Below, one piece after another: positions 22,403-64,000 of a stretch of DNA of 64,000 nt. The notes under the pieces are model-generated. The model ran no database searches. It was given only the letters and a program-made list of their open reading frames with translations, and was not told the DNA's origin. A program made the translations under genes and the position numbers. Position 1 is the first letter of the stretch; the number at the start of each line of letters is the position of its first letter. Source of the DNA: Diacronema lutheri (taxonomy: Eukaryota; Haptophyta; Pavlovophyceae; Pavlovales; Pavlovaceae); contig JAGTXO010000059.1 in NCBI GenBank assembly GCA_019448385.1, positions 62,001 to 126,000 on the forward strand. The letters run 5' to 3'.

Positions 22403-25137
22403 ATGGCGGCCATGGGCGAGGCCGCGCCCGAGGTGCCCCCGGGAGTCGACCCGCTCTACGTGGCGATCGTGCGCTTCAACCGGCGGGACTACGGCGCGAC
22501 AATTGCGCTGTGCACCCAGCTCCTGGACGCGCAGCCCTACGATCAGGCCGCCTGGTTCCTAAAGACGCGCGCGCTCACGATGGCGGTCTGGATCGACGAC
22601 GTCGAGGTCGACGAGGAGGGCGTCGCGGACGCGCTCCTCGACGACAATGCGACGGCATCGATGCCGCGGCCAGGCACGTCGCTCGCCCGCCCGATGACCG
22701 GCGCCGCCGCTGGCGGCGTCAACGCTTCAGTCCGCCCAATGTCGGCGTCGGGCCGGCCGACGACCGGCTTCGCGCGGCCGGGCACGCAGTCGGCGCGGCC
22801 GGGCACGCAGTCGCGAGGCGGGACGGCGGGGCTGGCGGCGGCGATGGGTGGCGGGCGATTGGGTACCGCCTCGCGCCCGATGACCTCCTTTGGCCGCCTC
22901 GTCCGCCTCGGCACCGCGTCGCTCGCCGCGGCGGCGTCCGGCGGGGCGGGCGGCGGCCCGTTCATCGCCGTCGACCGGCTCGACCTGCGCAAGTACGCCG
23001 AGCGGCCGACGCTCGCGCGCGCGCTCTTCGATTACATCCTGTACCACGACCACAACCCAAAAAAGGCGCTCGAGCTTGCTGCGCTCGCCACCGTCGCGAC
23101 CGACTTTGGCGAGTGGTGGTGGAAGGAGCGGCTGGGGAAGTGCTATTTCCAACTCGGTGCGCTGCGGCTCCCGCCGCCGTGTGCCCGCTCGGACCGCCCT
23201 CGCGTTGTGCGCAGCGCCGCGTGCATCCCGCTCCGGCCGCTGCGCGCCGGCTTGGCCCTGGTCGCCATGCGCTGGGTCGCCATGCGCACACTGCGCGCGC
23301 GCTACGTAAACACACACACTTGCACACACACACTTGCACACACACACTTGCACACACACACTTGCACACACACGCTTGCACACACACACTTGCACACACA
23401 CACTTGCACACACACACTTGCACACACACACTTGCACACACACACTTGCACACACACACTTGCACACACACACTTGCACACACACCCCTGCGCTCACGCG
23501 CCGTGCGCCCTTCGCGCCGCGCGTGCGTGCCGCGCGCCAGGGCTGCTGCGCGACGCGGAGAAGCAGCTGCGCTCCTCGCTCGCCGCGCAGCCCACCGTCC
23601 TCGCCACGCTCGAGCTCGCGCGTGTCTACCTCCGCCTCGACCAGCCGAACGCCGCCCTCGACGTGTACGCCAAGGGTGCTGATGCCTTCCCGCACGATGT
23701 CTCCCTCGTCGTCGGGCAGGCGAGACCGCTACCGTGCACCGCGCGGCGCGATGCTGCACGGTGGCGGGGTGGGGCGGGCGCGTGTTCGCGCGCCTCGCGC
23801 GCGCGCGCCCTCGCGCACGCTCGCGGCATTGTCGCCCTCACCGCGCCGCCGCCGCGCGCCCGCGCGCGCCGGCCGGGGTTGTGCAGGCGCGCACGTGCGA
23901 CGCGCTCAACGAGGGCGGGCGCGCCGTCGCGCTGTACAAGCGCGCGCTCGCGCTCGACGCGACGCACGTCGAGAGCCTCGCGTGCCTTGCTGCGCACCAT
24001 TTTTACACCGACCAGCCCGAGCTCGCTCTCCGCTTCTTCCGCCGGCTGCTGCAGCTCGGCGTTTCGTCAACGGCGCTGTGGAACAATCTCGCCCTCTCGT
24101 GCTTCTATTCAGCTCAGGTGCGCGCCGAGGGGCCGGCGCACCCGCGCGCCATCGTCGCCGCCGAGGCGCTACGCGCGCAGACCGTCCCTCCGTCGGCCCT
24201 GTTGCGCCGCCGAGCAGGCACTCCGCCCCACGCCCTCCTGCCCCGTGCCCTTTACCCACTCCCCGGCCCTCTGGCCCCATCCGCCCTCTGCCCCATCCGT
24301 CCGCGTTCAGTACGACCTATGCCTTGCCGCCTTTGAGCGCGCCCTCGCCCTGGCCGACGACGGCGAGGCCGGCGACGTGTGGTACAATGTGGGGCAGGTA
24401 TGCGCGACGCGCGAATACGCGCAGCGCGTCTCGCGTGCCATTGCATCCCCCCCCCCCACCGGATAGGGAGCGCGTTGGCCGCGCTTCGCTGGCAGGCGCA
24501 GCTCCTGCCGAGGCGAGCGGGCAGCGCCAGACACGACCCCGCACGCCCGCGCCGCTCGCGCTGCCCGCAACCCTCCGCCCTTCCCTCACGCAGGTGGCCA
24601 TCGGTATCGGTGATCTGGGCCTGGCGTACCAGGCTTTTAAAGTCGCAATCTCTGTTGACACCAACCACGTTGAGTCGTACGCCAACCTGGTGAGGCGGCG
24701 TGTCGTGGGCGACACGCCCGGCGCCGCGAGCGCGCGCGGGCGATGTATCTCGGGCGGTCTATCGCGCACCCACCGAGGAGGGAGGGGCCGTCCTGCACTT
24801 AAATTTGCGTGCGCACGCTGACTCCCCTAACCGCCCGCCCCCCCCCTCCCACCCCACACCCACACCCATACACACACGCCGCCCAACGCCCACCTCGCAG
24901 GGGGTGCTCGAGCTGCGCAAGGGTAACCTCGACGCCGCGCGCGCAAACTTTCAGACGGTGCACGAGATGGCGCCGCACATGTTTGAACCCTTCTTCAACG
25001 GCGCGCTCCTCGCGTTCAAGCTCGGCGACTTCCAGGAGGCGCACGACCTGGCGAGCAAGGCGATCGGCGCGTTCCCCGAGCATCACGACTCGCACGAGCT
25101 ACTGCGCCAGCTGCGCCAGCTGTTTGCTCACCTCTGA
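22403..25137 (+). CDS. BBS8: Bardet-Biedl syndrome 8 protein (BBSome TPR subunit)
   Basis: Predicted exons: 22403-23156, 23541-23719, 23887-24117, 24311-24397, 24594-24689 and 24901-25137; 527 residues, close to the animal length. BBS8 is a TPR subunit of the BBSome, which moves membrane proteins into and out of cilia and flagella. Diagnostic segments are AWFLKTRALTMAVWIDDVEV, the conserved PRPGTS and RPTTGFARPGTQSARPGT box, FGRLVRLGTASL, the LARALFDYIL/EWWWKERLGKCYF block, and TPRs such as DQPELALRFFRRLLQLGV, GDVWYNVGQ and APHMFEPFFNGALL. The second intron fits the family alignment best with a GC donor (CAG|GCGAGA at 23720); a GT donor at 23711 would delete three residues. Its presence implies a flagellated life stage. 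Confidence 0.93.
23310..23488. repeat. 14-bp (CTTGCACACACACA)n minisatellite in a BBS8 intron
   Basis: About 13 copies lie inside the first BBS8 intron (23157-23540), with one C-to-G variant near 23,375. Confidence 0.95.
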
Positions 25138-25335: not shown

Positions 25336-27305
25336 ATGCGAATGACGCGAATCGCCGTCGTGCTGCTCTCGGCCGTGGTCGTGACCGGGCAGTCCCCCGT
25401 CCCGTCCGAGCAGCTGCTCAGGAAGACGTGCACCCACAGCGGCAAGTGCGGGTACAAGCTGCCGCCCTGCTGCGCGCCAAAGATCTGCACTGAGCTCGTC
25501 AAGACGGACAACGGCGTCGACAAGGTGATCTACCGCTGCCGGCGCGCGCACGACAAGGCCGAAGTGAGCCCTCCGCCGCCGACGCCGCCCTTCTCGCCGA
25601 TCGTCGAGGCTCCCTCGCCGCCGCCGCCTAGCCCGCCACCCGCCAAGTCACCGCCGGCCAAGGTGCCCGTGCCGCCGGGCGTCGTCACGCCGCCGGGCGC
25701 CAAGTGCATCCCGCCGTTCGCCGAGTGCTTCAAGGAGCCCAAGAAGGACGACCTGCTCTGCTGCGAGGGCGCCATCTGCAAGCCGCACCGCCAGGCCAAG
25801 AAGGTGGTGTACAAGTGTGCGTGCGCCGCCGCGATGCGCTGCCGGCGGGCGCGCCGAGCGCGACCTTGACGTGCGTGTGCCGCCGTGCGTCTGCGCGCGC
25901 TGCGCGCGTCTCGACAGGCAAGGGCGGCAAGATTGAGCCGCGCTTCCCGCCGGCGCCTTCGCCACCGCCACCCCCTTCGCCGCCGCCTTCGCCGCCGCCG
26001 CCCTCCCCGCCGCCTCCGCCCAGTCCGCCGCCGCCAAGCCCGCCGCCGAGCCCGCCACCCAGCCCACCGCCAAGCCCCCCACCACCCTCGCCGAGCCCAC
26101 CACCACCCCCGCTGCCGCCGCCCCCGCCGCCGCCTAGTCCGCCACCGCCAAGCCCGCCACCTCCGTCGCCGAGCCCACCGCCCCCACCGAGCCCTCCACC
26201 GCCGAGCTCGCCCCCTCCCCCACCAAGCCCGCCGCCGCCAAGCCCGCCACCTTCGCCGAGCCCACCCCCGCCGCCGAGCCCGCCACCGCCGAGCTCGCCG
26301 CCGAATCCGCCGCCACCACCGCCACCGAGCCCGCCGCCGCCCTTCTCGCCCATCGTCGAATCGCCGAGCCCGCCGCCACCGCCAAGCTCCCCACCGCCGC
26401 CAAGCTCTCCGCCGCCTCCGCCTCCGCCCAGCCCACCGCCGCCGAGCCCACCGCCGCCTCCACCGCCGAGCCCGCCGCCACCGAGCCCACCACCACCACC
26501 ACCACCGAGCCCACCTCCCAGCCCGCCGCCAAGCCCGCCGCCCAGCCCGCCGCCACCGCCCAGCCCGCCGCCACCAAGCCCGCCTCCCAGCCCGCCGCCA
26601 AGCCCGCCGCCGAGCCCGCCCCCGAGCCCGCCCCCAAGCCCACCGCCGCCATCACCGGGCCCGCCGCCGCCGCCAAGCTCGCCGCCACCGCCTAACCCGC
26701 CGCCGCCAAGCCCGCCGCCGAGCCCACCGCCAAGCCCGCCGCCTTCGCCAAGCCCACCGCCGCCGCCAAGCCCGCCGCCGCCAAGCCCGAGCCCGCCGCC
26801 GCCCAGCTCGCCGCCGCCTCCACCGAGCCCGCCGCCGCCAAGCCCACCTCCGCCGCCGAGCCCCCCGCCACCGAGCTCGCCACCACCACCGAGCTCGCCA
26901 CCGCCGCCGAGCTCACCACCACCGCCGAGCCCGCCCCCGCCGCCGAGCCCACCACCGCCGAGCCCCAGTCCGCCGCCCTCACCGAGCTTGCCGCCACCGC
27001 CCAGCCCGCCTCCGCCGAGCCCGAGCCCACCGCCACCGCCCAAGCCGCCCCCGCCGAGCCCGAGCCCGCCGCCGCCGCCGAGCTCGCCTCCGCCACCGAG
27101 CCCGCCGCCGCCGAGCCCGCCGCCGAGCCCGCCGCCGCCGCCGCCGCCCAGCCCGCCACCGCCCAAGGTGATCAAGATCGTGTGCATCGACAAGAAGTAC
27201 GTCAAGTGCACCACGGACAAGGCCGACCTCAGCTACGCGCCGTGCTGCGAGCCCAAGGTGTGCAAGGAGGTCTCTGCCGGCAAGTACCGCTGCGCCTACC
27301 CGTAG
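25336..27305 (+). CDS. Secreted Pro-rich rod protein with three six-Cys modules (copy A)
   Basis: Exons 25336-25816 and 25918-27305, GT-AG, phase 1 (the split Cys codon of VVYKC|KGG). The ATG at 25336 opens a signal peptide (MRMTRIAVVLLSAVVVTGQS). Module 1 (CTHSGKCGYKLPPCC...C...C), module 2 (KCIPPFAEC...CC...C...C) and C-terminal module 3 (VCIDKKYVKC...CC...C...YRCAYP) each have the order C-C-CC-C-C, the spacing pattern of cystine-knot (knottin) folds. Modules 2 and 3 are separated by ~400 residues of PPSPPPP-type sequence, probably hydroxylated and glycosylated as in extensins and pherophorins. It is likely a cell-surface or matrix protein. Unlike copies B-D it keeps the extra N-terminal module. 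No enzyme domain is seen. Confidence 0.8.
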
Positions 27306-27851
27306 GCGCCAGCCGGCGGCGCCATCGCCAGCGCGATGGTCGCTTGCGAGTCCGCCGCCCTCGTCGCATGCCCTCGAGCTTTGCCGAACGCCAGTGCCTC
27401 GCCACGGTGCCCGTGCCGCAGATTCCTAACCCCACCCGAGGAGGGCGCCGCCGCTGATTCTGCCGCGCCAGCCTCTGCCGCGCGCTCTGCGTGAGCCGAG
27501 CTGCCGTGCAGCCGAGTGCCACTTGCCCCGGCAGCGCTGCGCGGTACGGCAACGTGACGCGGCTCCGCCCTCCTCGGAACGAGTGCTAACGTGAGACTGA
27601 CTGATAACCAGCTGGTTATGACCGAAATGCACTTGGATGCTCCGCTGGCGAGCGTCTGGCTGAGGGACACGTCGACCTGCGGTCCCCATTCTCGCACTCT
27701 GATCAGTGCGGCAGTCAAACGAGGAGAAGGCCTCATCACTTTGCCCATCAAGCGGCCCATCATCGCTGGCGCCTGCAAATAGGCAAAAGTTCCTGCCGCG
27801 GCTGCAGTGAAAACGACGATCGCGCCGAAACACCGACCTTGCCGACCCACG
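27306..27851. other. Spacer between copies A and B
   Basis: This 546-bp spacer holds the 3' flank of copy A and the promoter of copy B. A perfect 16-bp palindrome, ATAACCAGCTGGTTAT, sits at 27604-27619, about 235 bp upstream of the copy B start codon. No other gene is visible. Confidence 0.5.
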
Positions 27852-28387
27852 ATGCTCACGCGCCTCGTCCTCGTGCTCGCGGCGACCGCCGCCGTGAGCG
27901 GGCAGTCCTACAAGAAGCCCGTCGCGAGCCCACCGCCACCCATCTTCCCCGCCGGCCAGTCGCCCAGCCCGCCGCCCAGCCCGCCGCCACCGCCGCCAAG
28001 CCCGCCACCCGCGAAAGTTCCCGTGCCGCCGGGCGTCGTCACGCCGCCGGGCGCCAAGTGCATCCCGCCGTTCGCCGAGTGCTTCAAGGAGCCCAAGAAG
28101 GACGACCTGCTCTGCTGCGAGGGCGCCATCTGCAAGCCGCACCGCCAGGCCAAGAAGGTGGTGTACAAGTGTGCGTGCGCCGCCGCGATGCGCTGCCGGC
28201 GGGCGCGCCGAGCGCGACCTTGACGTGCGTGTGCCGCCGTGCGTCTGCGCGCGCTGCGCGCGTTTCGACAGGCAAGGGCGGCAAGGTTGAGCCGCGCTTC
28301 CCGCCGGCGCCCTCGCCACCTCCGCCACCGAGCCCGCCGCCTCCGCCCAGCCCGCCGCCGCCAAGCCCTCCGCCGAGCCCGCCACCG

Positions 28388-28425
<38 letters not shown>

Positions 28426-29632
28426 ACCGCCATTGCCTCCGCCATCGCCGCCACCGCCGCCTCCGCCTAGTCCGCCGCCGCCCTTCTCGCCCATCGTCGA
28501 ATCGCCGAGCCCGCCGCCGCCGTCACCAAGCCCGCCGCCGCCGCCAAGCCCGCCGCCGCCGCCAAGCTCGCCGCCGCCGCCGAGCTCGCCGCCACCACCG
28601 CCGCCGCCGAGCCCTCCGCCACCAGGTCCACCGCCCCCGAGCCCAAGCCCGCCTCCGCCGCCGAGCCCACCTCCGCCAAACCCTCCGCCCCCGCCTCCTC
28701 CAAGCCCACCGCCGCCAAGCCCGCCCCCACCGAGCCCGAGCCCGCCTCCGCCGCCCAGCCCACCGCCCCCAAGCCCTCCGCCCCCGCCGAGCCCGCCGCC
28801 ACCAAGCCCCCCGCCAAGCCCGTCCCCGCCTCCGCCGCCGAGCCCTCCGCCACCACCGCCGCCGAGCCCGCCGCCGAGCCCGCCGCCGGCGCCTCCGCCC
28901 ACCCCGCCTCCCAGCCCGCCGCCAAGCCCTCCGCCAAGCCCTCCGCCCTCGCCTAGCCCGCCGCCGCCGCCAAGCCCGCCACCGCCGCCGAGCCCGCCGC
29001 CTCCGAGCTCGCCACCCCCGCCAAGCTCGCCACCACCGCCGAGCTCACCACCGCCGCCAAACCCACCGCCGCCGCCGAGCTCGCCACCACCGCCGAGCCC
29101 GCCGCCGCCAAGCCCGCCACCAAGCCCGCCGCCACCACCACCGCCGAGCCCGCCACCGCCGAGCCCGAGCCCGCCACCACCGCCAAGCCCGCCGCCGCCA
29201 CCGAGCTCGCCGCCACCGCCCAGCCCGCCGCCGCCCTTGCCCCCGCCCTCGCCGCCTCCGCCGCCACCGCCCAGCCCGCCGCCCAGCCCTCCTCCGCTGC
29301 CTCCGCCGAGCCCGCCTCCGCCGAGCCCGAGCCCACCCCCACCGCCGAGCCCGCCGCCGCCAAGCCCGAGCCCGCCGCCACCGAGCCCGAGCCCGCCGCC
29401 GCCGCCGAGCTCGCCTCCGCCACCGAGCCCGCCGCCGCCGAGCCCGCCGCCGAGCCCGCCGCCGCCGCCGCCGCCCAGCCCGCCACCGCCCAAGGTGATC
29501 AAGATCGTGTGCATCGACAAGAAGTACGTCAAGTGCACTACGGACAAGGCCGACCTCAGCTACGCGCCGTGCTGCGAGCCCAAGGTGTGCAAGGAGGTCT
29601 CCGCCGGCAAGTACCGCTGCGCCTACCCGTAG
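27852..29632 (+). CDS. Secreted Pro-rich rod protein with two six-Cys modules (copy B)
   Basis: Exons 27852-28170 and 28272-29632; intron position and sequence are nearly those of copy A. The signal peptide MLTRLVLVLAATAAVSGQS starts at the ATG 27852 (an upstream in-frame GTG is not used). A short PPSPPP linker leads into module 2 (KCIPPFAEC...), then the intron, a ~390-residue Pro/Ser rod with one PFSPIVESPSP island, and the shared C-terminal module ending YRCAYP. Module 2 is almost identical to that of copy A, while the rods differ in length and repeat order. Expected location is the extracellular matrix or cell surface. Confidence 0.8.
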
Positions 29633-29906
29633 GCCCGTCTGTACCCATGGCCATCTTGGCGCCGCGAGCCCACCCTGCGCCGCGCGCGAGCCTGCGTGGC
29701 CGTGGCCTTGTGCGCATGCCCTCGAGAACCGCATTCGCTGATTTCGCCGTCAGCTGCGTCCGCGCGAGCCGTCTTTGAAGCTCGCGCGCTGCGGCCATGG
29801 CTCGTGACGCGCATCGCTCTCCGAGGAAATGGATTGAGAGAACTCTTCCCGTGATCGCGCCGAGCGCGATTCACGTGTCGCCTCGTCGCGCCCTGGGCCC
29901 GTGGTG

Positions 29907-29936
29907 GCATTTGGTCAAACGCGCGCGTGTTTAAAA
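29907..29936 (+). promoter_or_regulatory. Candidate core promoter element of copy C
   Basis: A near-palindrome (GCATTTGGTCAAACGC) is followed 7 bp later by TTTAAAA, about 210 bp upstream of the copy C ATG. The arrangement is repeated upstream of copy D. Confidence 0.4.
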
Positions 29937-30144
29937 TTGGGCCCCATCATCCCCGTTGGCCCGCGAGGAGACTTCGCACTCGTCCACAGTGTCGTTGCTC
30001 CGCATGGAATCAGTCGGCTGAGTACCTCGAGCGAATCAGCGTGCCTATCACACCCACACTGTTCCATCACGCGCTGCAAGAAAAGCGCGAAAATCCCAAA
30101 AGCGCCAGCTCCGCAGCCAGCGCCGCGCCCGACCCACGAAAGCG

Positions 30145-31635
30145 ATGATCTCGCGCGTCGTCGCGTCGCTGCTCCTCTCGGTGGCCATCACGAGCGCGCA
30201 GGACTACGCCAAGAAGGTGCCACCGGCCTCGTCGCCACCGCCGCTCTTCTCGCCGCCACCGCTCCTCTCGCCACCACCTCCGAGCTCGCCGCCGCCCGTC
30301 TTTGGCGGTGCGAGCTCGCCGCCTCCCAGTCCGCCGCCACCGAGCCCGCCACCACCGCCGAGCCCGTCGCCGGAGCTGAGCCCGCCACCACCATTGGCCT
30401 CACCGCCTCCGCCACCGAGCCCGCCGCCCGCCAAGGTGCCCGTGCCGCCGGGCGTCGTCACGCCGCCGGGCGCCAAGTGCATCCCGCCGTTCGCCGAGTG
30501 CTTCAAGGAGCCCAAGAAGGACGGCCTGCTCTGCTGCGAGGGCGCCATCTGCAAGCCGCACCGCCAGGCCAAGAAGGTGGTGTACAAGTGTGCGTGCGCC
30601 GCCGCGATGCGCTGCCGGCGGGCGCGAGTGCGGCGACTAAGCCGCAAACGCGCGCCGCCGCGCGCGCGCGCATCTGCGACCCCCGCGCACATGGCGCGGT
30701 CCGCAGGCAAGGGTGGCAAAGTTGAGCCGCGCTTCCCACCCGCGCCGTCGCCACCCCCACCACCGTCCCCGCCGCCGCCGCCGCCGCCGCCGTCGCCGCC
30801 GCCGCCACTTCCGCCGCCACCAATCTCGCCTATCGCTGAATCACCGAGCCCACCGCCGCCCTCGCCAAGCCCGCCGCCGCCGCCAAGCCCTCCTCCCGGG
30901 CCAAGTTCGCCACCGCCGCCAAGCTCGCCGCCGCCGCCACCGCCGCCCAGCCCGCCGCCGCCAAGTCCCGCGCCATCACCGAGCCCTCTGCCACCGCCGA
31001 GCCCGCCGCCGCCGCCCCCACCGAGCCCGCCGCCGCCATCGCCAAGCCCACCGCCGCCGCCCAGCCCGCCACCGCCGCCGCCTAGCCCGCCGCCGCCAAG
31101 CCCACCGCCCTCGCCCAGCCCACCGCCGCCGCCAAGTCCACCTCCTCAAAGTCCACCACCGCCGCCGAGCCCGCCTCCGCCGAGCTCGCCTCCCCCGCCC
31201 AGCCCGCCGCCGCCGCCACCCCCGAGCCCGCCACCGAGTCCACCGCCCAGTCCTCCACCCAGTCCGCCACCAAGCCCGCCTCCTCCACCGCCACCGAGCC
31301 CGCCTCCAAGCCCTCCTCCGCCGCCTCCACCGAGTCCGCCGCCGCCGCCTCCGCCAAGCCCTCCACCGCCGAGCCCGCCTCCGCCGAGCCCGAGCCCGCC
31401 GCCGCCGCCGAGCTCGCCTCCGCCACCGAGCCCGCCACCACCCACCCCGCCGCCGAGCCCACCGCCACCGCCGCCGCCCAGCCCGCCGCCGCCCAAGGTG
31501 ATCAAGATCGTGTGCATCGACAAGAAGTACGTCAAGTGCACCACGGACAAGGCCGACCTCGGCTACGCGCCGTGCTGCGAGCCCAAGGTGTGCAAGGAGG
31601 TCTCCGCCGGCAAGTACCGCTGCGCCTACCCGTAG
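30145..31635 (+). CDS. Secreted Pro-rich rod protein with two six-Cys modules (copy C)
   Basis: Exons 30145-30589 and 30707-31635. The signal peptide MISRVVASLLLSVAITSAQ is followed by an SPPP-rich linker longer than in copy B, module 2 (one substitution, KKDGLLCC for KKDDLLCC), a ~260-residue Pro/Ser rod and the shared C-terminal module (ADLGYAPCC variant). The intron is 117 bp, a multiple of three and free of stops, so an unspliced product would stay in frame; its 3' half differs from the introns of A, B and D. Expected role and location are as for copy A. Confidence 0.8.
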   Translation: MISRVVASLLLSVAITSAQDYAKKVPPASSPPPLFSPPPLLSPPPPSSPPPVFGGASSPPPSPPPPSPPPPPSPSPELSPPPPLASPPPPPSPPPAKVPVPPGVVTPPGAKCIPPFAECFKEPKKDGLLCCEGAICKPHRQAKKVVYKCACAAAMRCRRARVRRLSRKRAPPRARASATPAHMARSAGKGGKVEPRFPPAPSPPPPPSPPPPPPPPSPPPPLPPPPISPIAESPSPPPPSPSPPPPPSPPPGPSSPPPPSSPPPPPPPSPPPPSPAPSPSPLPPPSPPPPPPPSPPPPSPSPPPPPSPPPPPPSPPPPSPPPSPSPPPPPSPPPQSPPPPPSPPPPSSPPPPSPPPPPPPSPPPSPPPSPPPSPPPSPPPPPPPSPPPSPPPPPPPSPPPPPPPSPPPPSPPPPSPSPPPPPSSPPPPSPPPPTPPPSPPPPPPPSPPPPKVIKIVCIDKKYVKCTTDKADLGYAPCCEPKVCKEVSAGKYRCAYP

Positions 31636-31909
31636 GCCCGTCTGTACCCATGGCCATCTTGGCGCCGCGAGCCCACCCTGCGCCGCGCGCGAGCCTGCGT
31701 GGCCGTGGCCGTGTGCGCATGCCCTCGTGAGCCGCACCCGCTGATTTCGCCGTCAGCTGCGCCCGCGCGAGCCGTCTTTGAAGCTCGCGCGCTGCGGCCA
31801 TGGCTCGTGACGCGCATCGCTCTCCGAGGAAATGGATTGAGAGAACTCTTCCCGTGATCGCGCCGAGCGCGATTCACGTGTCGCCTCGTCGCGCCCTGGG
31901 CCCGTGGTA

Positions 31910-31939
31910 GCGTTTGGTCAAACGCGCGCGTGTTTAAAA
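31910..31939 (+). promoter_or_regulatory. Candidate core promoter element of copy D
   Basis: GCGTTTGGTCAAACGC (7-bp arms, 2-bp spacer) is followed by TTTAAAA, 209 bp upstream of the copy D ATG. Here the palindrome is perfect; copy C has one mismatch. Confidence 0.4.
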
Positions 31940-32147
31940 TTGGGCCCCATCATCCCCGTTGGCCCGCGAGGAGACTTCGCACTCGTCCGCAGTGTCGTTG
32001 CTCCGCATGGAATCAGTCGGCTGAGTACCTCGAGCGAATCAGCGTGCCCATCACACCCACACTGTTCCATCACGCGCTGCAAGAAAAGCGCGAAAATCCC
32101 AAAAGCGCCAGCTCCGCAGCCAGCGCCGCGCCCGACCCACGAAAGCG

Positions 32148-32811
32148 ATGATCTCGCGCGTCGTCGCGTCGCTGCTCCTCTCGGTGGCCATCACGAGCGC
32201 GCAGGACTACGCCAAGAAGGTGCCACCGGCCTCGTCGCCACCGCCGCTCTTCTCGCCGCCACCGCTCCTCTCGCCACCACCTCCGAGCTCGCCGCCGCCC
32301 GTCTTTGGCGGTGCGAGCTCGCCGCCTCCCAGTCCGCCGCCACCGAGCCCGCCACCACCGCCGAGCCCGTCGCCGGAGCTGAGCCCGCCACCACCATTGG
32401 CCTCACCGCCTCCGCCACCGAGCCCGCCGCCCGCCAAGGTGCCCGTGCCGCCGGGCGTCGTCACGCCGCCGGGCGCCAAGTGCATCCCGCCGTTCGCCGA
32501 GTGCTTCAAGGAGCCCAAGAAGGACGACCTGCTCTGCTGCGAGGGCGCCATCTGCAAGCCGCACCGCCAGGCCAAGAAGGTGGTGTACAAGTGTGCGTGC
32601 CGCGCTTTGCAACATTGCGCATGCGCGCGCGAGTGCGGCGACCTTGACGTGCTTGTGCCGCCGCGCGTCTGTGCGCGCTTCGCGCGTCTCAACAGGCAAG
32701 GGCGGCAAGGTTGAGCCGCGCTTCCCGCCGGCGCCCTCGCCACCTCCGCCACCGAGCCCGCCGCCTCCGCCCAGCCCACCACCGCCGAGCCCTCCGCCGA
32801 GCCCGCCACCG

Positions 32812-32849
<38 letters not shown>

Positions 32850-33531
32850 ACCGCCGTTGCCTCCGCCCTCGCCGCCACCTCCGCCTCCCCCGAGCCCGCC
32901 GCCACCGCCAAGCCCGCCACCGCCATTGCCTCCGCCCTCGCCGCCGCCTCCACCTCCTCCGAGCCCACCGCCACCCTTCTCGCCTATAGTTGAGTCGCCG
33001 AGCCCACCGCCGCCGCCAAGCCTGCCGCCGCCGAGCCCGCCGCCGCCGAGCCCGAGCCCACCGCCGCCGCCGAGCCCGCCGCCGCCACCGCCGCCCAGTC
33101 CGCCGCCCAGCCCACCGCCAAGTCCACCACCAAGTCCGCCGCCCCCGCCGCCCCCGCCGCCCCCAAGCCCGCCACCGAGTCCGCTGCCGCCTCCGCCTCC
33201 AAGCCCGCCCCCACCCTCGCCAAGCCCACCACCGCCGCCGAGCCCGCCGCCGCCGCCTCCACCGAGCCCACCACCGCCGAGCTCGCCTCCACCACCAAGC
33301 CCGCCGCCGCCGAATCCGCCGCCCAGCCCACCGCCGCCGCCGCCGCCGAGCCCGCCGCCGCCCAAGGTGATCAAGATCGTGTGCATCGACAAGAAGTACG
33401 TCAAGTGCACCACGGACAAGGCCGACCTCAGCTACGCGCCGTGCTGCGAGCCCAAGGTGTGCAAGCAGGTCACCAAGGAAACGCCGACGGGCACGAAAAC
33501 CATGTACCGCTGCGCCTACTCGCCGCCATAG
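32148..33531 (+). CDS. Secreted Pro-rich rod protein with two six-Cys modules (copy D)
   Basis: Exons 32148-32592 and 32696-33531. The first exon is almost identical to that of copy C. The intron resembles those of A and B in its 3' part but has a new 5' part, giving a mosaic consistent with gene conversion. The rod is the shortest of the four (~200 residues). The C-terminal module keeps its six Cys, but the last inter-Cys loop is longer and reads KQVTKETPTGTKTMYRC, and the protein ends AYSPP instead of AYP. It is the most diverged C-terminus of the cluster. Confidence 0.8.
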
Positions 33532-33792: not shown

Positions 33793-35242
33793 TCAATTTT
33801 CATGGCTTTCAGCTTCAACCGCGTCGCTTGGCGCTGACCTTGTGCCGTCCGCGTCGCCATTTGGCTCCGCCGAGTCTGCGCCCGAAGCGCCGCCTTGCTC
33901 CCGCGTCTGTTCAGCCGGCGCCCCCGCGCCGTCTGCGCGCTCGTCGGCGACCTGACCTTCGGCTGGCGGCGGGCGAGCGCCGCCGCTGGCGTCCGCGCCC
34001 GCGCCCGCGCCTGCGCCCGCGCCCGCGCCCGCGCCCGCGTCCGCGCCCGCGCCTGCGCCCACCTCACCGTCGCCAACCGGCTGAGCGCCCTCCGGCTGGG
34101 CTTGTGCGTCCACACCGCCCACGCCGCCATCCGCGCCCGCCTCATCTCCCGCCTCACCGCCCGCGCCTGCCTCGTCCGCGCCCTCCGCGTCCACGCCGCC
34201 GCCGGCCGCGCCGCTGCCGCGCGCGAGCAGTCGCGCGCGCCGGTCTGTGCGCTGGTCGGCGACGCGCTTCGTATTCACGATGCCTGCAGTGCGAGCAGCA
34301 CCGCGAGGGGAAGGGGGGGGGGGGGGGGGGGGTAAAAGGGTGAAGGGATGGGGAAGGGGGGGGGGGGGGGGGCAGGGGGTTGCATTGCCGCGCACCCGAC
34401 CGCCAGCCAACGCGCAGACGCGCCGCGCGGACGCACGCAGCGCGCGGCGGCGCGGCGCGCGTGCCTGCGGCGAGGTGGTGCTGCACGCCCTTGCCAATCA
34501 GCTTTGCAACTTCGGCCGAAGCGCCGACAACGTGGCCAAGCGTGGAGAGGTGGTGGCGCAGCCCGCGCTGGACGGCGGTGCCATTCTGTGCGTGCGCGCG
34601 AATGACATCGTGCACGTGCATGAGGTGGCGCAAGTGCTTGTTGTGAATCACCTCCGCCGGCTCGTCGCCGACGGCGCCGCCGCCGGCCGCGCCGGCCGCG
34701 GCGCCGGCGCGCAGCCGCGCGGCGACGTGGCCGTGCACGTCGGCCGGGTCGCCAATGTCGGCGGGATCGAGGCGGGCGGCGGAGAGGAGGTGCGCGTGCA
34801 CCTCCGCCGTGATCCACGGGCCGGCGACATGCCCGAGTGCCACCGAGAGGCAGCCCATCGCGACAAGCATTGACACGGCCGCGCGCAACGCCGGCCCGCC
34901 GACCGCAAGCGCGACGGGCGCGCCGCCGATGTTGAGCGTCTGGGCAGGGCGCGGGCCGGGCGCGGCGGATGCGGACGCGCGCGCGTACAGCGCGAGCGCG
35001 AAGAGCGCGACTGCCGGCGCGAGCAGCCACGCCGAGAGCGACGCGGCGCTGAGCGGGAGGAGCGCCGCGCTGAGCAGCAGGAAGCGCGCGCGCTGTTTGC
35101 GCTCGCGCCGCTTCTTGTCGGCGAGATTGATCCAGTCGTCGGCGAGCTGCAGCTCCAGATCGATCTCCGCGAGCGCACACGCGCACATCCACCCGCACGC
35201 CGACGCGAACCAGAGCAGCACGACCGTGTGCGCCGTCACCAT
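33793..35242 (-). CDS. Multi-spanning membrane protein with acidic C-terminal tail, unknown family
   Basis: Predicted exons 35242-34465 and 34283-33793, 422 residues. The junction works only with a GC donor (GCAG|GCACGC, phase 1) giving HHLAAG-IVNTKRV; no GT donor nearby matches the phase. Hydrophobic segments are HTVVLLWFASACGWMCACAL, FLLLSAALLPLSAASLSAWL to ALFALALYA, and VSMLVAMGCLSVALGHVAG, with the charged loop LADDWINLADKKRRERKQRA between the first two. The last ~160 residues are Gly/Ala/Glu/Asp-rich with GAGAGA repeats. The loop and topology faintly recall cornichon-type cargo receptors, but I would not assign that. It is divergent from the next gene. Confidence 0.6.
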
Positions 35243-35330
35243 GGCCGCACCGCACCGCACCCCTTTTCAAAACGTGGGAGGACGGGGCCGCCGGCTTTCC
35301 GCGCCATCGCGCGCGTCGACCGGTGGCGCG
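35243..35330. promoter_or_regulatory. 88-bp divergent intergenic region
   Basis: It separates the start codons of the minus-strand membrane protein and the plus-strand Cys-rich protein. An in-frame plus-strand ATG at 35241 overlaps the minus-strand start codon; I prefer 35331 because it directly opens a signal peptide. Confidence 0.45.
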
Positions 35331-38300
35331 ATGGGCCGCGCCGCGCGCGCGCTCGGCGCGGTGGTGCTCGCGCTCATGGTGGGATGCCGGCGCGGCGGTG
35401 CATCGACGCTTGTTCCCGGCGCCTCCGTCAGCTGCGCCGAGGGCTCGCACCTCACATGCGCCTTCCTGCGCAACGTCGAGTGGCGCGACGGCCGCTGCTG
35501 CGTGCAGGGCGAGGTGCCCGGCTCGACGATGCATTGCGTGCCGGGCTCGCACCTCGCGTGCAATCACTTGGGGCGTGGCACGTTCACAGGCGTCAACGTG
35601 CGCGCACGCGCGCGCCGCGCCGCGCCGCGCCGCGCCGCGCCGCGCCGCGCCGCGCCGCGCCGCGCCGCGCCGCGCCGCGCCGCGCCGCGCCGCACCGGCG
35701 CCCGACCCCGCCGCGCGCGCGCCGCGCGTGCGCGCCGCGCCGCGCCGCAGTGCTGCATCGAGGCGTCGGCCGCGCTGACGTGCGAGCACAGGTGTCAGGA
35801 CCAGCCGGATTGGCTCGACGTCGCCGGCCTCTCGTGCGCGCAGCTCGAGGACGCGGGCGCGTGCCGCGGCGGCCGCTTGCTGCGCGCGCCCGCCGCGCCG
35901 CCGGCGCCGGCCGGCGCGCTCGCCGCGCGGCGCGCGCGCGGCGCGGAGGCGCTGCCGCCCGCGCGCGCGTGCTGCGCGTGCGGGCGCAACGAGACGCTCG
36001 AGGCCGAGCTTGCGCGCACGCCCGCGCCCGCGCCCGCGCCGACGCCGTCGGCGACGCCCGCGCCCGCGTCGGCTTCTGGTGGCGGTGGCGACGACGGCGG
36101 CGGTGGCGGCGCGGCGCGGCGCGGCCACGGGCGGCTCGGCGGCGGCGCGGCAAGCTCGCGCGCGCGGGGGCACAGCGCGCGCGGTGCGGGTGCGAGCGCG
36201 CACGATACCGTTGACTTTGATCGTCTCTTGCGCGCGGCAGAGATGGCGGCGGCGGCGGCGGACGGCGAGGCACGCGGCGCGGGCGGCGGCGACGGCGGCG
36301 GCGGAATGGGCGGCGGCGGCATCTTTGGCGACGATGCGCCTTGGGCTGCGGCAGCGTCGGCGCTGGTCGCCGAGCGCGTGCTGCGCGGCAGCCGCGCGGC
36401 CGCAGAGCCGGCGCGCGCGCGCCGTCTGAGCGCAACCGGAGGTGGCGGTGGCGGCGGAGTCGGCGATGGCGGACGCGGTGGCGGTATCGGTGGCTGGCAC
36501 GGTGGGCAGCGGATGTCGGGCTGGGGCAAGGAGGCGTGCACGGTACGCTGCGGTGCCGGCCGGAGCGGCGTGCCGCGGTGTCGCCACCAAGCCGCGCGCC
36601 CGCTGCGAGCAGCAACCCGCCGTGCGCGCTGCGCCAGCGCTGCGTCGAAGCGGGTACCCAAGCGGGTTCCCAAGCGGGTACCCAAGCGGGTACCCAAGCG
36701 GGTACCCAAGCGGGTACCCAACCGTACCCAGTTGGCCCCGCACCCCCGTACCCCCGCACCCTTGCACCCTCCTCGCCCATGCACCGCCTGGCGCGCGCGC
36801 GCAGGGCCCGTCGGAGCTGTGGACGGGAACGCACTGCTGCGCAGATCCCACCTTCCATTTCCATACCGAGCACTGCGCTCCGGGCACGCAAGCCGCGTGC
36901 GAGTCCGGACGCGAGGCGGCGATCGCGACGCCCAACCGTTGGGTGCCCGCAGCGCGGCGCGGCGCCCCCACCGCCGCCACCACCGCCGCCTCTGCCGTGC
37001 CGAGCGCCGCCGTCGATGCCGCCGCCGACATGGGCGAGTGCTGCGTGATGGGCTCGCCGCACATGCGCTGCGTCGAGTCGACCCACCTGATCTGCGTGTG
37101 GCTCGGTGAGGCGCGCGCCCTCACCACCGCGCGCGCTGCCGCGCGGCACCGCCGCGCGCACGTGCGTGCGCTGCGTTGGCCGCGCCTTACACACAAGTCG
37201 TGTGTAGCAATGCGCCGATCCCACCTTGCATTGCTGCACCGATCCCACCTTCCATTGCTGCACCGATCCCACCTTCCATTGCTGCACCGATCCCACCTTC
37301 CATTGCTGCACCGATCCCACCTTCCATTGCTGCACCGATCCCACCTTCCATTGCTGCACCGATCCCACCTTCCATTGCTGCACCGATCCCACCTTCCATT
37401 GCTGCACCGATCCCACCTTCCATTGCTGCACCGATCCCACCTTCCATTGCTGCGCCGATCCCACCTTCCATTGCTGCGCCGATCCCACCTTCCATTGCTG
37501 CGCCGATCCCACCTTCCATTGCTGCGCCGATCCCACCTTCCATTGCTGCGCCGATCCCACCTTCCATTGCTGCACCGATCCCACCTTCCATTGCTGCACC
37601 GATCCCACCTTCCATTGCTGCACCGATCCCCTCCACCCACCCGCCTGATTCGCCGCGCCGCGCGCCGCTGCGTGCGCCAGGCGTGTGGACGGGCGTCAAG
37701 TGCTGCATTGACGGCGCGGGCCCGATGACGTGCGTCCCCGGCACCGCCGAGAACTGCCATGGCAAGTTCGCCGGACTGTCCTGCTGCCTGCCCGGCGCAA
37801 ACCTCGCGTGTGACCTGACCGCTGCAGAGGAGGATTGCATGGCGCCCACGCAAACGTGGACGGGCCGCGCGTGCTGCCAACTGCCGACGCTGCCGCCTCC
37901 ACCCGCGCCGCCGTCGCCGCGCCCGCCGCCGCCGAGCCCGAGCCCGCCGCCGCGCCCACCTCGCCCGGCACCACCGCCGTCGCGCCCGCCGCCGTCGCCG
38001 CCGCCGTCGCCACGCCCACCGCCGCGCCCGCCCAGCCCTGCGCCGCCGCCGTCGCCACGCCCGCCGCCGCCGCCACCGCCATCGCGCCCACCGCCGCCGC
38101 CCTCGCCGCGTCCGCCGTCGCCGCCGCGCCCGCCGCCGTCGCACCCGCCGCCGGCGCCGCGCCCGCCGCCGGCGCCGTCGCCGCCGCGCGCGCCGCCGCG
38201 CGCGCCCCCGCCGGCGCGCCCGCCGCCGCGACCCCCGCCGCCGCCGCCCTTCGCCTTCTTGCCCGACGCCGAGGTGCCGCAGCTGCGCGCCGCCGAGCGG

Positions 38301-62835: not shown

Positions 62836-64000
62836 CTAGCAATCGTGTGTGTACGATCCAGCTCGCCCATGGCACGCTGCATCATACCGCCGCTTGCTTA
62901 CGAGCGCCCCTGACATGGCCCTTAAATGCCCCGGCGCTGAGCTGGACAGGGCAAGTGCGCATGTTGTGCCCCTGCTGCATGCAGTTGTGCCGCTGCTGCT
63001 TGCAGACTGTGCACGCCTGAAGCTGTCGGCTCGACGCCCCGCCATGACCAGCACCAAGGCCACCAGCTCGGTGTGGGTCGCTGCTGTTTGTCCTTCTGCG
63101 CGCAGGGAGCGAAGTCGCTGTCGTCGCCGGCCGAGACGTCCAAAACTTCTGGCATACTGTCGGCCGCCACCTGGCGGGAGGTCACGCCAAGAACCATCCA
63201 AGTTGTTGAGGGCAAAGCAATGCGCACAAAAGAGCTCTCCCTCCTCGTCGCCCTGCCGTACATCTGGGCACCTGAACGCTGTGTGGATGTGGCACTTGCA
63301 CACGGCGCACCTGCGGAAAGACTGCCAACTGATGCACATCTTCTCCTTGTCCTCGTCGCTCAGCGTCGCAATGCGGCCAGAAAAACACGACCACTGGGCG
63401 CCAATGGACGGCTCGCTTCCATCCGATGTGGATGGCCTCTGGTTGAACCCGTCGATCAAAACAGGCGTGCTTGAGCGCGCGACTAAGCCAGCGTTTTCGT
63501 TTGCAAAGCGATGCGGCGGGATTGCAGCAGGCAACCAGAGGCCACGTGCTGCAGGTTGCGGATCTGCACGAGGAAGTAGCGCGTCGTGTGCCGGTTGTAG
63601 TTCCACCTATCCGTGGGCGTGCACCCGTAGTCGATGCCGTGGAGGACCATGTCGGGCAGGTAGTCGTTGAGCGCGGCGGGGCAGTTGGCGCGCGCGCCCG
63701 CCACGTCGCCACGCAGCAGCCGCTCGCACAGCTCGCGCACGCGCGCGTTTCGCTGCATCTCAGCGCGAAGAGCGCCTCGTCGCGCTCGACTGCCGCGCGG
63801 ACAACGTCGCGGAGCAGCCCGTTTACGACGCGCGATGGGTGCATCAGGCACGCGGTGGACACCTGCGTCGCCTCCTCCCTGAGGATCTGCGCGAGGCCCA
63901 CCGCGCAGACGGGCTGGACGCCCTCGGCTATCTCGCCGACGGCGCGCGCCGTCGCCGCCTTGGTCTGCGCGGCGGCTTGCTCGGCGGGGGGGGGGGGGTG
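62836..64000 (-). pseudogene. Frameshifted Cys-rich ORF, possible transposase remnant
   Basis: Reading down the minus strand, 63,990-63,760 gives LREEATQVSTACLMHPSRVV and VERDEALFAL. The reading then continues only in another frame (EMQRNARVRELCERLL, LPDMVLHGIDYGCTPTDRWN, YNRHTTRYFLVQIRNLQHVA) to a stop at 63,483, and a third frame downstream gives FNQRPSTSDGSEPSIGAQWS and a Cys cluster RRCAVCKCHIH...FRC...FCAHC. The Cys cluster recalls the C-terminal zinc-binding region of some DDE transposases, but the family is not established. The frame changes without splice sites suggest decay. The 5' end is outside the window. Confidence 0.35.

Follow-up and report, generated by a model that had tools for sequence, protein, structure and literature searches.

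In this study, we found that four adjacent genes on the + strand of Diacronema lutheri (positions 25336-33531 of the window, that is, of the whole 64,000-nucleotide stretch analysed) belong to a family of nine genes with 19 cysteine modules, whose products are probably parts of the outer coat of this small marine alga. A rod-and-cap architecture, in which a leader is followed by small six-Cys modules and a long Pro/Ser rod, is supported by the predicted proteins. The explanation that we favor, at a little under an even chance, is that they are secreted rod-and-knob hydroxyproline-rich glycoproteins of the cell coat, acting as multivalent matrix linkers that hold anionic polysaccharide.

Organization of the window genes

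The initial annotation had described four adjacent genes with a leader, N-terminal modules, a Pro/Ser rod and a C-terminal module, and all of these elements lie where it had placed them. Our window gene models were predicted from the sequence alone; three RNA-seq libraries belong to the published work on this genome (PMC8379373; project PRJNA725470). Gene A (25336-27305; 622 aa, three modules) consists of exon 1 (25336-25816), a 101-bp GT..AG intron (25817-25917) and exon 2 (25918-27305). It opens with a leader read by eye as a putative signal peptide (25336-25389), followed by module 1 (25429-25539; net charge +3), found in this gene only, module 2 (25705-25818), a rod (25920-27182) with 59 SP3-5 blocks and one FSPIVESP break, and module 3 (27183-27293). 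Gene B (27852-29632; 559 aa, two modules) has exon 1 at 27852-28170, a 101-bp intron at 28171-28271 and exon 2 at 28272-29632; its module 2 (28059-28172) has the same DNA sequence as module 2 of gene A and is joined by a rod of 52 SP3-5 blocks (28274-29509) to module 3 (29510-29620). Gene C (30145-31635; 457 aa, two modules) is made up of exon 1 (30145-30589), a 117-bp intron (30590-30706), which stays in frame if retained, and exon 2 (30707-31635), with module 2 (30478-30591) one amino acid different from that of gene A, a rod of 27 SP3-5 blocks (30709-31512) and module 3 (31513-31623). In gene D (32148-33531; 426 aa, two modules), exon 1 (32148-32592), a 103-bp intron (32593-32695) and exon 2 (32696-33531) encode module 2 (32481-32594), a rod of 22 SP3-5 blocks (32698-33381) and module 3 (33382-33513), whose last loop has 16 residues versus 9 in genes A-C. 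The upstream region and exon 1 of gene D are a recent duplicate of their gene C counterparts.

Gene A has two N-terminal modules and genes B-D have one, while the C-terminal module is present in all four. Each gene has a single short GT-AG intron, which in all four interrupts the final Cys codon of module 2; in gene A this codon is formed by T at 25816 and GC at 25918-25919, and the last codon of the unspliced module (25705-25818) likewise encodes Cys. The rod length of 200-400 residues given in the initial annotation was roughly right, with Cys-to-Cys distances of 422, 413, 269 and 229 in genes A to D.

Relatives elsewhere in the genome

Eukaryotic relatives were sought within the D. lutheri genome itself, and the count of nine genes covers that genome. 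Module 1 of gene A matched six places on contigs C85 and C4 (E 1.5e-6 to 1.7e-5), where five further genes lie in two clusters, making the family larger than the initial annotation had it; neither these genes nor the intron had been recorded there. All nine gene models start with a hydrophobic leader, as read by eye. In the five C85/C4 genes, the rod ends in a Lys/Arg-containing basic tail in place of a C-terminal module, so that a basic end recurs. The idea that modules cap both ends of the rod thus held for genes A-D and failed for the five relatives, and the double-capped rod marks the window subfamily only. On inspection, three weak matches on C102, C30 and C89 (loci L033-L035; E 0.06-0.43) were put down to chance, and so were two places on C4 that fit a loose pattern and lack a rod.

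Pattern, charge and divergence of the six-Cys modules

With loop lengths limited to the observed ranges, the six-Cys pattern occurred nine times in the six frames of the window, exactly at the nine modules; in 60 simulations of the window under a first-order Markov model, the mean was 0.017 (maximum 1), a comparison that is somewhat circular since the loop ranges were taken from the modules themselves. A looser pattern gave 10 occurrences versus 0.2 in simulation (maximum 3), the extra one lying on the minus strand at 63461-63568. The Cys order C-C-CC-C-C is kept in 19 of 19 modules, all found by the pattern or by homology to modules so found, and CC-x4-C is likewise invariant. The modules had been called identical in pattern, which is true of Cys order and not of loop lengths: these are 5,6,0,4,16 in module 1, 6,10,0,4,12 in module 2 and 7,11,0,4,9 or 16 in module 3. 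Outside the Cys residues, module 2 is weakly similar to the other modules. Net charge is basic in all 19, from +1 to +11; the window modules are modestly basic (+3 to +4) and module E3 carries just +1.

Among copies, modules 2 and 3 are near-identical, the last loop of gene D excepted. NG86 dN/dS was run on 12 module pairs, with short sequences and estimates given without confidence limits: five diverged pairs had dN < dS (ratio 0.25-0.59), four were identical, two had dN < dS from two differences each, and the pair A2-C2 differed by a single nonsynonymous change.

Composition of the Pro/Ser rods

The window rods contain 72-74% Pro and 16-21% Ser. Across the family, rod length ranges from 229 to 580 residues, and SP3-5 blocks are present in nine of nine genes (22-119 per gene). 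All nine genes combine a long Ser-Pro3-5 run with a putatively secreted product, as in extensin-type proteins, secretion being judged from the leader read by eye. A genome search with the rod break motif returned 14 matches, all inside the two C85 genes.

Pro codons in the rods vary at the third position (entropy 1.25-1.61 of 2 bits), which argues for constraint at the peptide level and against a simple DNA repeat. This bears on the view that the genes are non-functional, their products being translations of GC-rich CCN repeat DNA in which modules arose by chance. A genome of 73% GC (PMC8379373) with Pro-rich frames could invite such a reading, but the nine intact frames, the mixed Pro codons, the conserved Cys skeleton, the intron site shared by four genes and the homologs on other contigs leave it next to no chance, and we regard it as already disfavored. 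Rods of this length are also more than a precursor needs. Release of small Cys-rich peptides from the rod as signals would fit modules that form separable units with linkers; reading by eye revealed no conserved processing site, however, and such a role seems very remote.

Tyr is absent from the rods of A-D, E, G, H and I, and F has one terminal Tyr. Since the window rods lack Tyr, extensin-type cross-linking through rod Tyr, suggested in the initial annotation, is not supported for them. Cap-cap binding is known in pherophorins, and two caps paired on one rod would suit a structural matrix protein whose caps interact among themselves or with further proteins and whose rods are cross-linked by sugars or otherwise, the matrix growing by protein contacts and not gripping anionic polysaccharide specifically. 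The pherophorin-type dumbbell offers a precedent, with cross-links via arabinose phosphodiesters proposed there (PMC9818292). Against this, every Cys residue of A-D (18, 12, 12 and 12) belongs to a full set of six, so that none is left over for bonds between chains, and a basic tail replaces the second cap in the five relatives. We consider a matrix of this kind unlikely, though a real contender.

Fold of the modules and database searches

A knottin fold is plausible for the modules. The inhibitor-cystine-knot fit proposed at the outset agrees with the Cys order in 19 of 19 modules; no known knottin family proved significantly related in sequence (Pfam, none of 11 modules; PDB, best E 0.021). 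Loops 1, 3 and 4 fall inside the usual knottin consensus; modules 2 and 3 exceed it in loop 2 (10-11 residues), and several modules do so in loop 5 (16-17 residues). Against PDB sequences, module 3 matched two gurmarin sequences (both E 0.14), module 1 an alpha-amylase inhibitor (E 0.35) and a nucleocapsid protein (E 1.2), all non-significant, and module 2 had no match. A profile of 11 modules, built on an alignment partly out of Cys register, matched eight distinct PDB sequences at E 0.021-3.2, none significant, six of which we take to be knottins. A six-module profile, aligned in register, gave five of its eight matches to GDF8, which is not a knottin. The matches of module 1, module 3 and the 11-module profile lean weakly to knottins, none of them significantly.

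Structure prediction, put forward initially as a check on the knot, was run on all three window module types and returned low-confidence models with no significant fold match. The AlphaFold models of gene A modules 1 and 2 together and of module 3 were poor (mean pLDDT 57.4 and 67.0), and Foldseek found nothing for either at E <= 0.001. At E <= 10, there were 20 and 77 matches, with the best 50 of the 77 looked at; module 3 matched mostly ribosomal protein uL6 and the other model mostly DNA polymerases. Three module 3 matches (ranks 5, 10 and 15), gurmarin among them, are presumably knottins; Foldseek matches were not used as evidence.

Small basic Cys-rich modules fit antimicrobial or inhibitor roles as well as the linker model. 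In a defense role, rod-tethered knottin-like heads would guard the surface from bacteria, grazers or hydrolases, as the basic charge, the weak PDB matches to plant alpha-amylase inhibitors, gurmarin and other knottins, and the tandem duplication of the genes, with some recent copies, might suggest. However, no PDB match is significant, modules 2 and 3 are not diversifying among copies apart from the last loop of gene D, and diffusible peptides do not usually carry rods of 229-580 residues, so we judge defense quite unlikely.

None of the 11 representative module sequences matched Pfam or NCBIfam, and thus none fell into an already named matrix-protein domain, the outcome that would have refuted the initial annotation. 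Six pieces (modules and the exon-1 stretches of A and B) gave a single chance match in Pfam, Mito_fiss_reg (E 4.2); the Pfam searches covered modules and these two stretches. In two scans of viral contigs and one of prokaryote contigs, short patterns matched in 34, 36 and 36 stretches, with no relative among them. MAFFT misregistered the Cys residues of module 3 in three alignments, of module 1 in another and the second Cys of some other rows; one viral-contig scan profile was partly out of register in this way, and the other two contig scans used alignments in register. A described family of such build was not found in a literature search whose reach stopped short of most subscription journals.

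Proposed model

Considering the above results, we propose a plausible model for these proteins as linkers of anionic polysaccharide. Hydroxylation and O-glycosylation would turn the (S)P3-5 rod into a stiff polyproline-II spacer, which may be ~70-130 nm long in the window genes at a polyproline-II rise of ~0.31 nm per residue. The basic, putatively disulfide-locked modules would bind anionic polysaccharide of the surface or mucilage, either at both ends (window genes) or through N-end modules and a basic C-tail (C85/C4 clusters), and each molecule, once expressed and secreted, could bridge polymer chains or anchor polysaccharide to the cell. The exopolysaccharide of another species of the genus, Diacronema ennorea, contains 10.6% sulfate and 8% uronic acid and is called anionic (PMC10498797); together with the basic charge of all 19 modules, this argues for a linker that holds anionic polysaccharide.

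The genome has 41 matches to PF13640 (2OG-Fe(II) oxygenase) and 30 to PF03407, counted by exon and not by gene, and one PF03407 gene lies ~4 kb from gene E on C85. We take PF13640 to include prolyl hydroxylases and PF03407 to include GT77 arabinosyltransferases, both alongside other enzymes; the families are broad and prove nothing specific for hydroxylation or glycosylation of the rods. GT47 sequences whose closest similarity is to ExAD are present in haptophytes (PMC5371791).

A more speculative extension, possible but doubtful, is that the family represents a matrix system of haptophytes, or perhaps of pavlovophytes alone, in which the dumbbell of pherophorins and lectins evolved independently, with knottin caps or basic tails gripping sulfated polysaccharide and maybe building the knob scales or mucilage of Pavlovales. 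To our knowledge, the coat proteins of Pavlovales have not been described, and the family would open a first way into the protein component of this coat, its small disulfide modules being candidates for binding sulfated polysaccharide.

Comparison with known systems

The plan of the window proteins resembles that of pherophorins and solanaceous lectins, with a cap that appears undescribed. The pherophorins of Volvox and Chlamydomonas share the dumbbell plan; their domain is larger (a profile of 148 positions) and carries a different Cys pattern. Neither the modules nor the exon-1 stretches of A and B matched PF12499, which we take to be DUF3707, the pherophorin domain; a genome search with it gave no match either, with controls equally silent. 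Pherophorins form a large gene family (PMC9818292).

In the solanaceous chimeric chitin-binding lectins of potato, tomato and Datura, hevein modules flank an extensin-like PPPPS-type domain (PMC5485984, PMC5751800), so that small disulfide-rich modules stand on both sides of the rod as in the window genes. A lectin-like role, raised in the initial annotation, may be possible. This closest described parallel (PMC5485984) would favor a lectin for neutral glycans such as GlcNAc. Nevertheless, PF00187, the hevein profile, is unmatched by the modules, although it matched once elsewhere in the genome, on contig C37, with 14 control genomes silent. An aromatic binding motif following the CC pair was not seen in the module sequences, and a lectin for neutral glycans is highly improbable.

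Extensins have repeated Ser-(Pro)3-5 blocks in common with the family rods, whereas the rods lack the Tyr cross-link motif and Cys modules are added here. Knottin peptides such as gurmarin and plant alpha-amylase inhibitors share the Cys order C-C-CC-C-C with the modules, though the sequence matches are weak, loops 2 and 5 reach 11 and 17 residues here and the modules are fused to long rods. Among haptophytes, EhG42278.1 of E. huxleyi is a candidate extensin-like protein of the coccolith vesicle with multiple Ser-(Pro)3-4 repeats and a proposed role in base-plate assembly (PMC10290126); compared by description and not by sequence, it is similar to the family rods.

The nine-gene haptophyte family with undescribed caps would suggest more than one origin of the rod-and-knob plan. 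Green algae and land plants are the best-known sources of rod-and-knob hydroxyproline-rich glycoproteins, and the family looks like a separate haptophyte take on their matrix proteins.

Window genes and their introns

Four head-to-tail genes on the + strand (A, B, C and D) occupy positions 25336-33531, as the initial annotation had proposed, and each carries one intron with GT..AG ends (101, 101, 117 and 103 bp, respectively). The intron site is the same in all four: the donor follows base 1 of the codon that specifies the last, sixth Cys in module 2. Splicing regains this Cys and fuses module 2 to the Pro/Ser rod, resulting in proteins of 622, 559, 457 and 426 residues. Gene A encodes the six-Cys modules 1, 2 and 3, and genes B, C and D encode modules 2 and 3, consistent with the one or two N-terminal modules and the C-terminal module first described. 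The signal peptide claimed earlier was also recognized, as all four products begin with a short hydrophobic leader, a putative signal peptide when read by eye. About 1 kb (upstream region, exon 1 and intron start) is 97.6% identical between genes C and D, with a duplication period of 2003 bp, and from these sequences we infer that the two genes have a recent duplication in common. The intron of gene C (30590-30706, 117 bp) contains no in-frame stop; its retention would add 39 residues, many of them Arg, and the frame stays open when unspliced (496 aa).

Upstream of A lies a TPR-repeat gene (22403-25137, + strand; TPR by Pfam), which presumably resembles TTC8/BBS8 and has CACACTTGCACAC-type simple repeats inside. 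Downstream of D, a + strand frame (34755-37109) had no match in Pfam; it combines a tandemly repeated VPKR and stretches rich in Gly/Ala with another Cys-rich stretch, of the GSHLTCAF...GRCC type. Further on, a loose six-Cys match (C-C-CC-C-C) with a loop 4 of seven was observed in a 468-residue Pro-containing frame (L025:5831, window ~37731, + strand).

Relatives elsewhere in the genome

A passage of the D. lutheri NIVA-4/92 genome report gives 43,502,671 bp, 103 contigs and 73.25% GC (PMC8379373); our search covered 43,492,796 bases in 103 contigs. Queries with modules 2 and 3 each returned the four window copies and no others, and the module 1 query hit contigs C85 and C4 at six places (E 1.5e-6 to 1.7e-5), which were found again with two more queries. 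These places form five further intact, intron-less frames: genes E (three modules) and F (one module) on C85, and G, H and I (two modules each) on C4. The family thus comprises at least nine genes and 19 modules, a lower bound, as the search was made without a profile and scored the best candidates alone. In genes E-I, every module is N-terminal and the rod terminates in a basic tail; the proposed capping of both rod ends therefore holds for A-D and fails for E-I. Genes H and I (C4:376072-384486) are long, highly alike copies with strikingly regular rods of 580 and 566 residues.

Modules and their fold

The strict-loop six-Cys pattern, with ranges derived from the modules themselves, occurred nine times in the window vs. 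a mean of 0.017 in 60 Markov simulations, and the loose-loop pattern ten times vs. a mean of 0.2. Loop 4 is invariably four residues (CC-x4-C) in all modules, and loops 1, 2 and 5 are variable. In 2000 shuffles of the loops around fixed Cys, covering 28 pairs of eight module types, the similarity of modules 1 and 3 extended beyond Cys (z 3.1 for module 3 of gene A, 4.1 for that of gene D), which supports their common descent. For module 2 the similarity to the remaining modules was weak (z 1.1 to 2.3, p 0.02 to 0.15), and the same descent is plausible for it.

None of 11 representative modules matched in Pfam or NCBIfam, and no named matrix-protein domain was found for them there. Against PDB sequences, module 3 matched gurmarin (E 0.14), module 1 an alpha-amylase inhibitor (E 0.35) and a nucleocapsid protein (E 1.2), and module 2 nothing. 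The 11-module profile returned eight PDB sequences (E 0.021-3.2), six of which we take to be knottins, and the six-module profile five GDF8 and three knottin sequences. These matches appear to tilt towards knottins, without significance. AlphaFold models from shallow input (1 and 3 sequences) had mean pLDDT of 57.4 and 67.0, and Foldseek found nothing for them at E <= 0.001. The suggested inhibitor cystine knot is neither demonstrated nor contradicted by these results.

Rods

The nine rods contain 59-76% Pro and 16-21% Ser, with 22 to 119 SP3-5 blocks per gene. Their Pro codons have mixed third positions (entropy 1.25-1.61 of 2 bits), which fits selection on the peptide. Hydrophobic breaks of IAP or VAP type number 8, 7, 5, 1 and 1 in E, F, G, H and I, and each window rod has one similar break (FSPIVESP or ISPIAESP); the breaks are reminiscent of plant HRGPs, whose polyproline rods are kinked, as reportedly described by Ferris in 2001. 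Tyr is absent from eight of the nine rods and occurs once, at the extreme end, in the ninth; therefore, classical extensin cross-linking by rod Tyr is not supported as a basis for the cross-linkable fibres of the initial annotation. Sugar-mediated cross-links of the kind put forward for pherophorins (PMC9818292) are possible.

Proposed function

All 19 modules are basic (net charge +1 to +11), as are the cap-less rod ends of genes E-I, and the exopolysaccharide of D. ennorea, whose contents are given as 10.6% sulfate and 8% uronic acid, is described as anionic (PMC10498797). On this basis, we propose that caps and basic tails might hold anionic polysaccharide, with the rod fixing the spacing between the holding ends. 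Broad enzyme families that might act on the rod occur in the genome. A PF03407 (Nucleotid_trans) gene on the - strand of C85 (L019:2708-5119; domain C85:117541-118281), whose protein has an N-terminal membrane anchor by eye, lies ~4 kb from gene E and is a candidate rod glycosyltransferase, or its proximity could be chance. Published work reports a GT47 sequence closest to the extensin glycosyltransferase ExAD in two haptophytes (PMC5371791), a candidate protein of E. huxleyi that has repeats of Ser-(Pro)3-4 and may act in base-plate assembly (PMC10290126), and knob scales borne by Pavlovophyceae (PMC10341766). A tie between the rod-and-module proteins and these knob scales is a guess.

Comparison with known systems

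The module-rod family is real and, to our knowledge, uncharacterized; our literature search found no published description of a family of this build, as had been anticipated. A hevein version of the lectin-like reading of the caps is not supported: PF00187 (hevein/chitin-binding) does not match the modules, yet matches one place elsewhere, the only one in the genome (C37:950397-950516, E 1.2e-5). No pherophorin domain was recognized in the modules by Pfam. The PF12499 genome profile search had no match either, but its controls were silent too, which makes that result uninformative. In overall plan, the nine-gene family resembles pherophorins (PMC9818292) and solanaceous chimeric lectins (PMC5485984, PMC5751800). 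It is a variant of this already known rod-and-cap plan, with an apparently undescribed cap.
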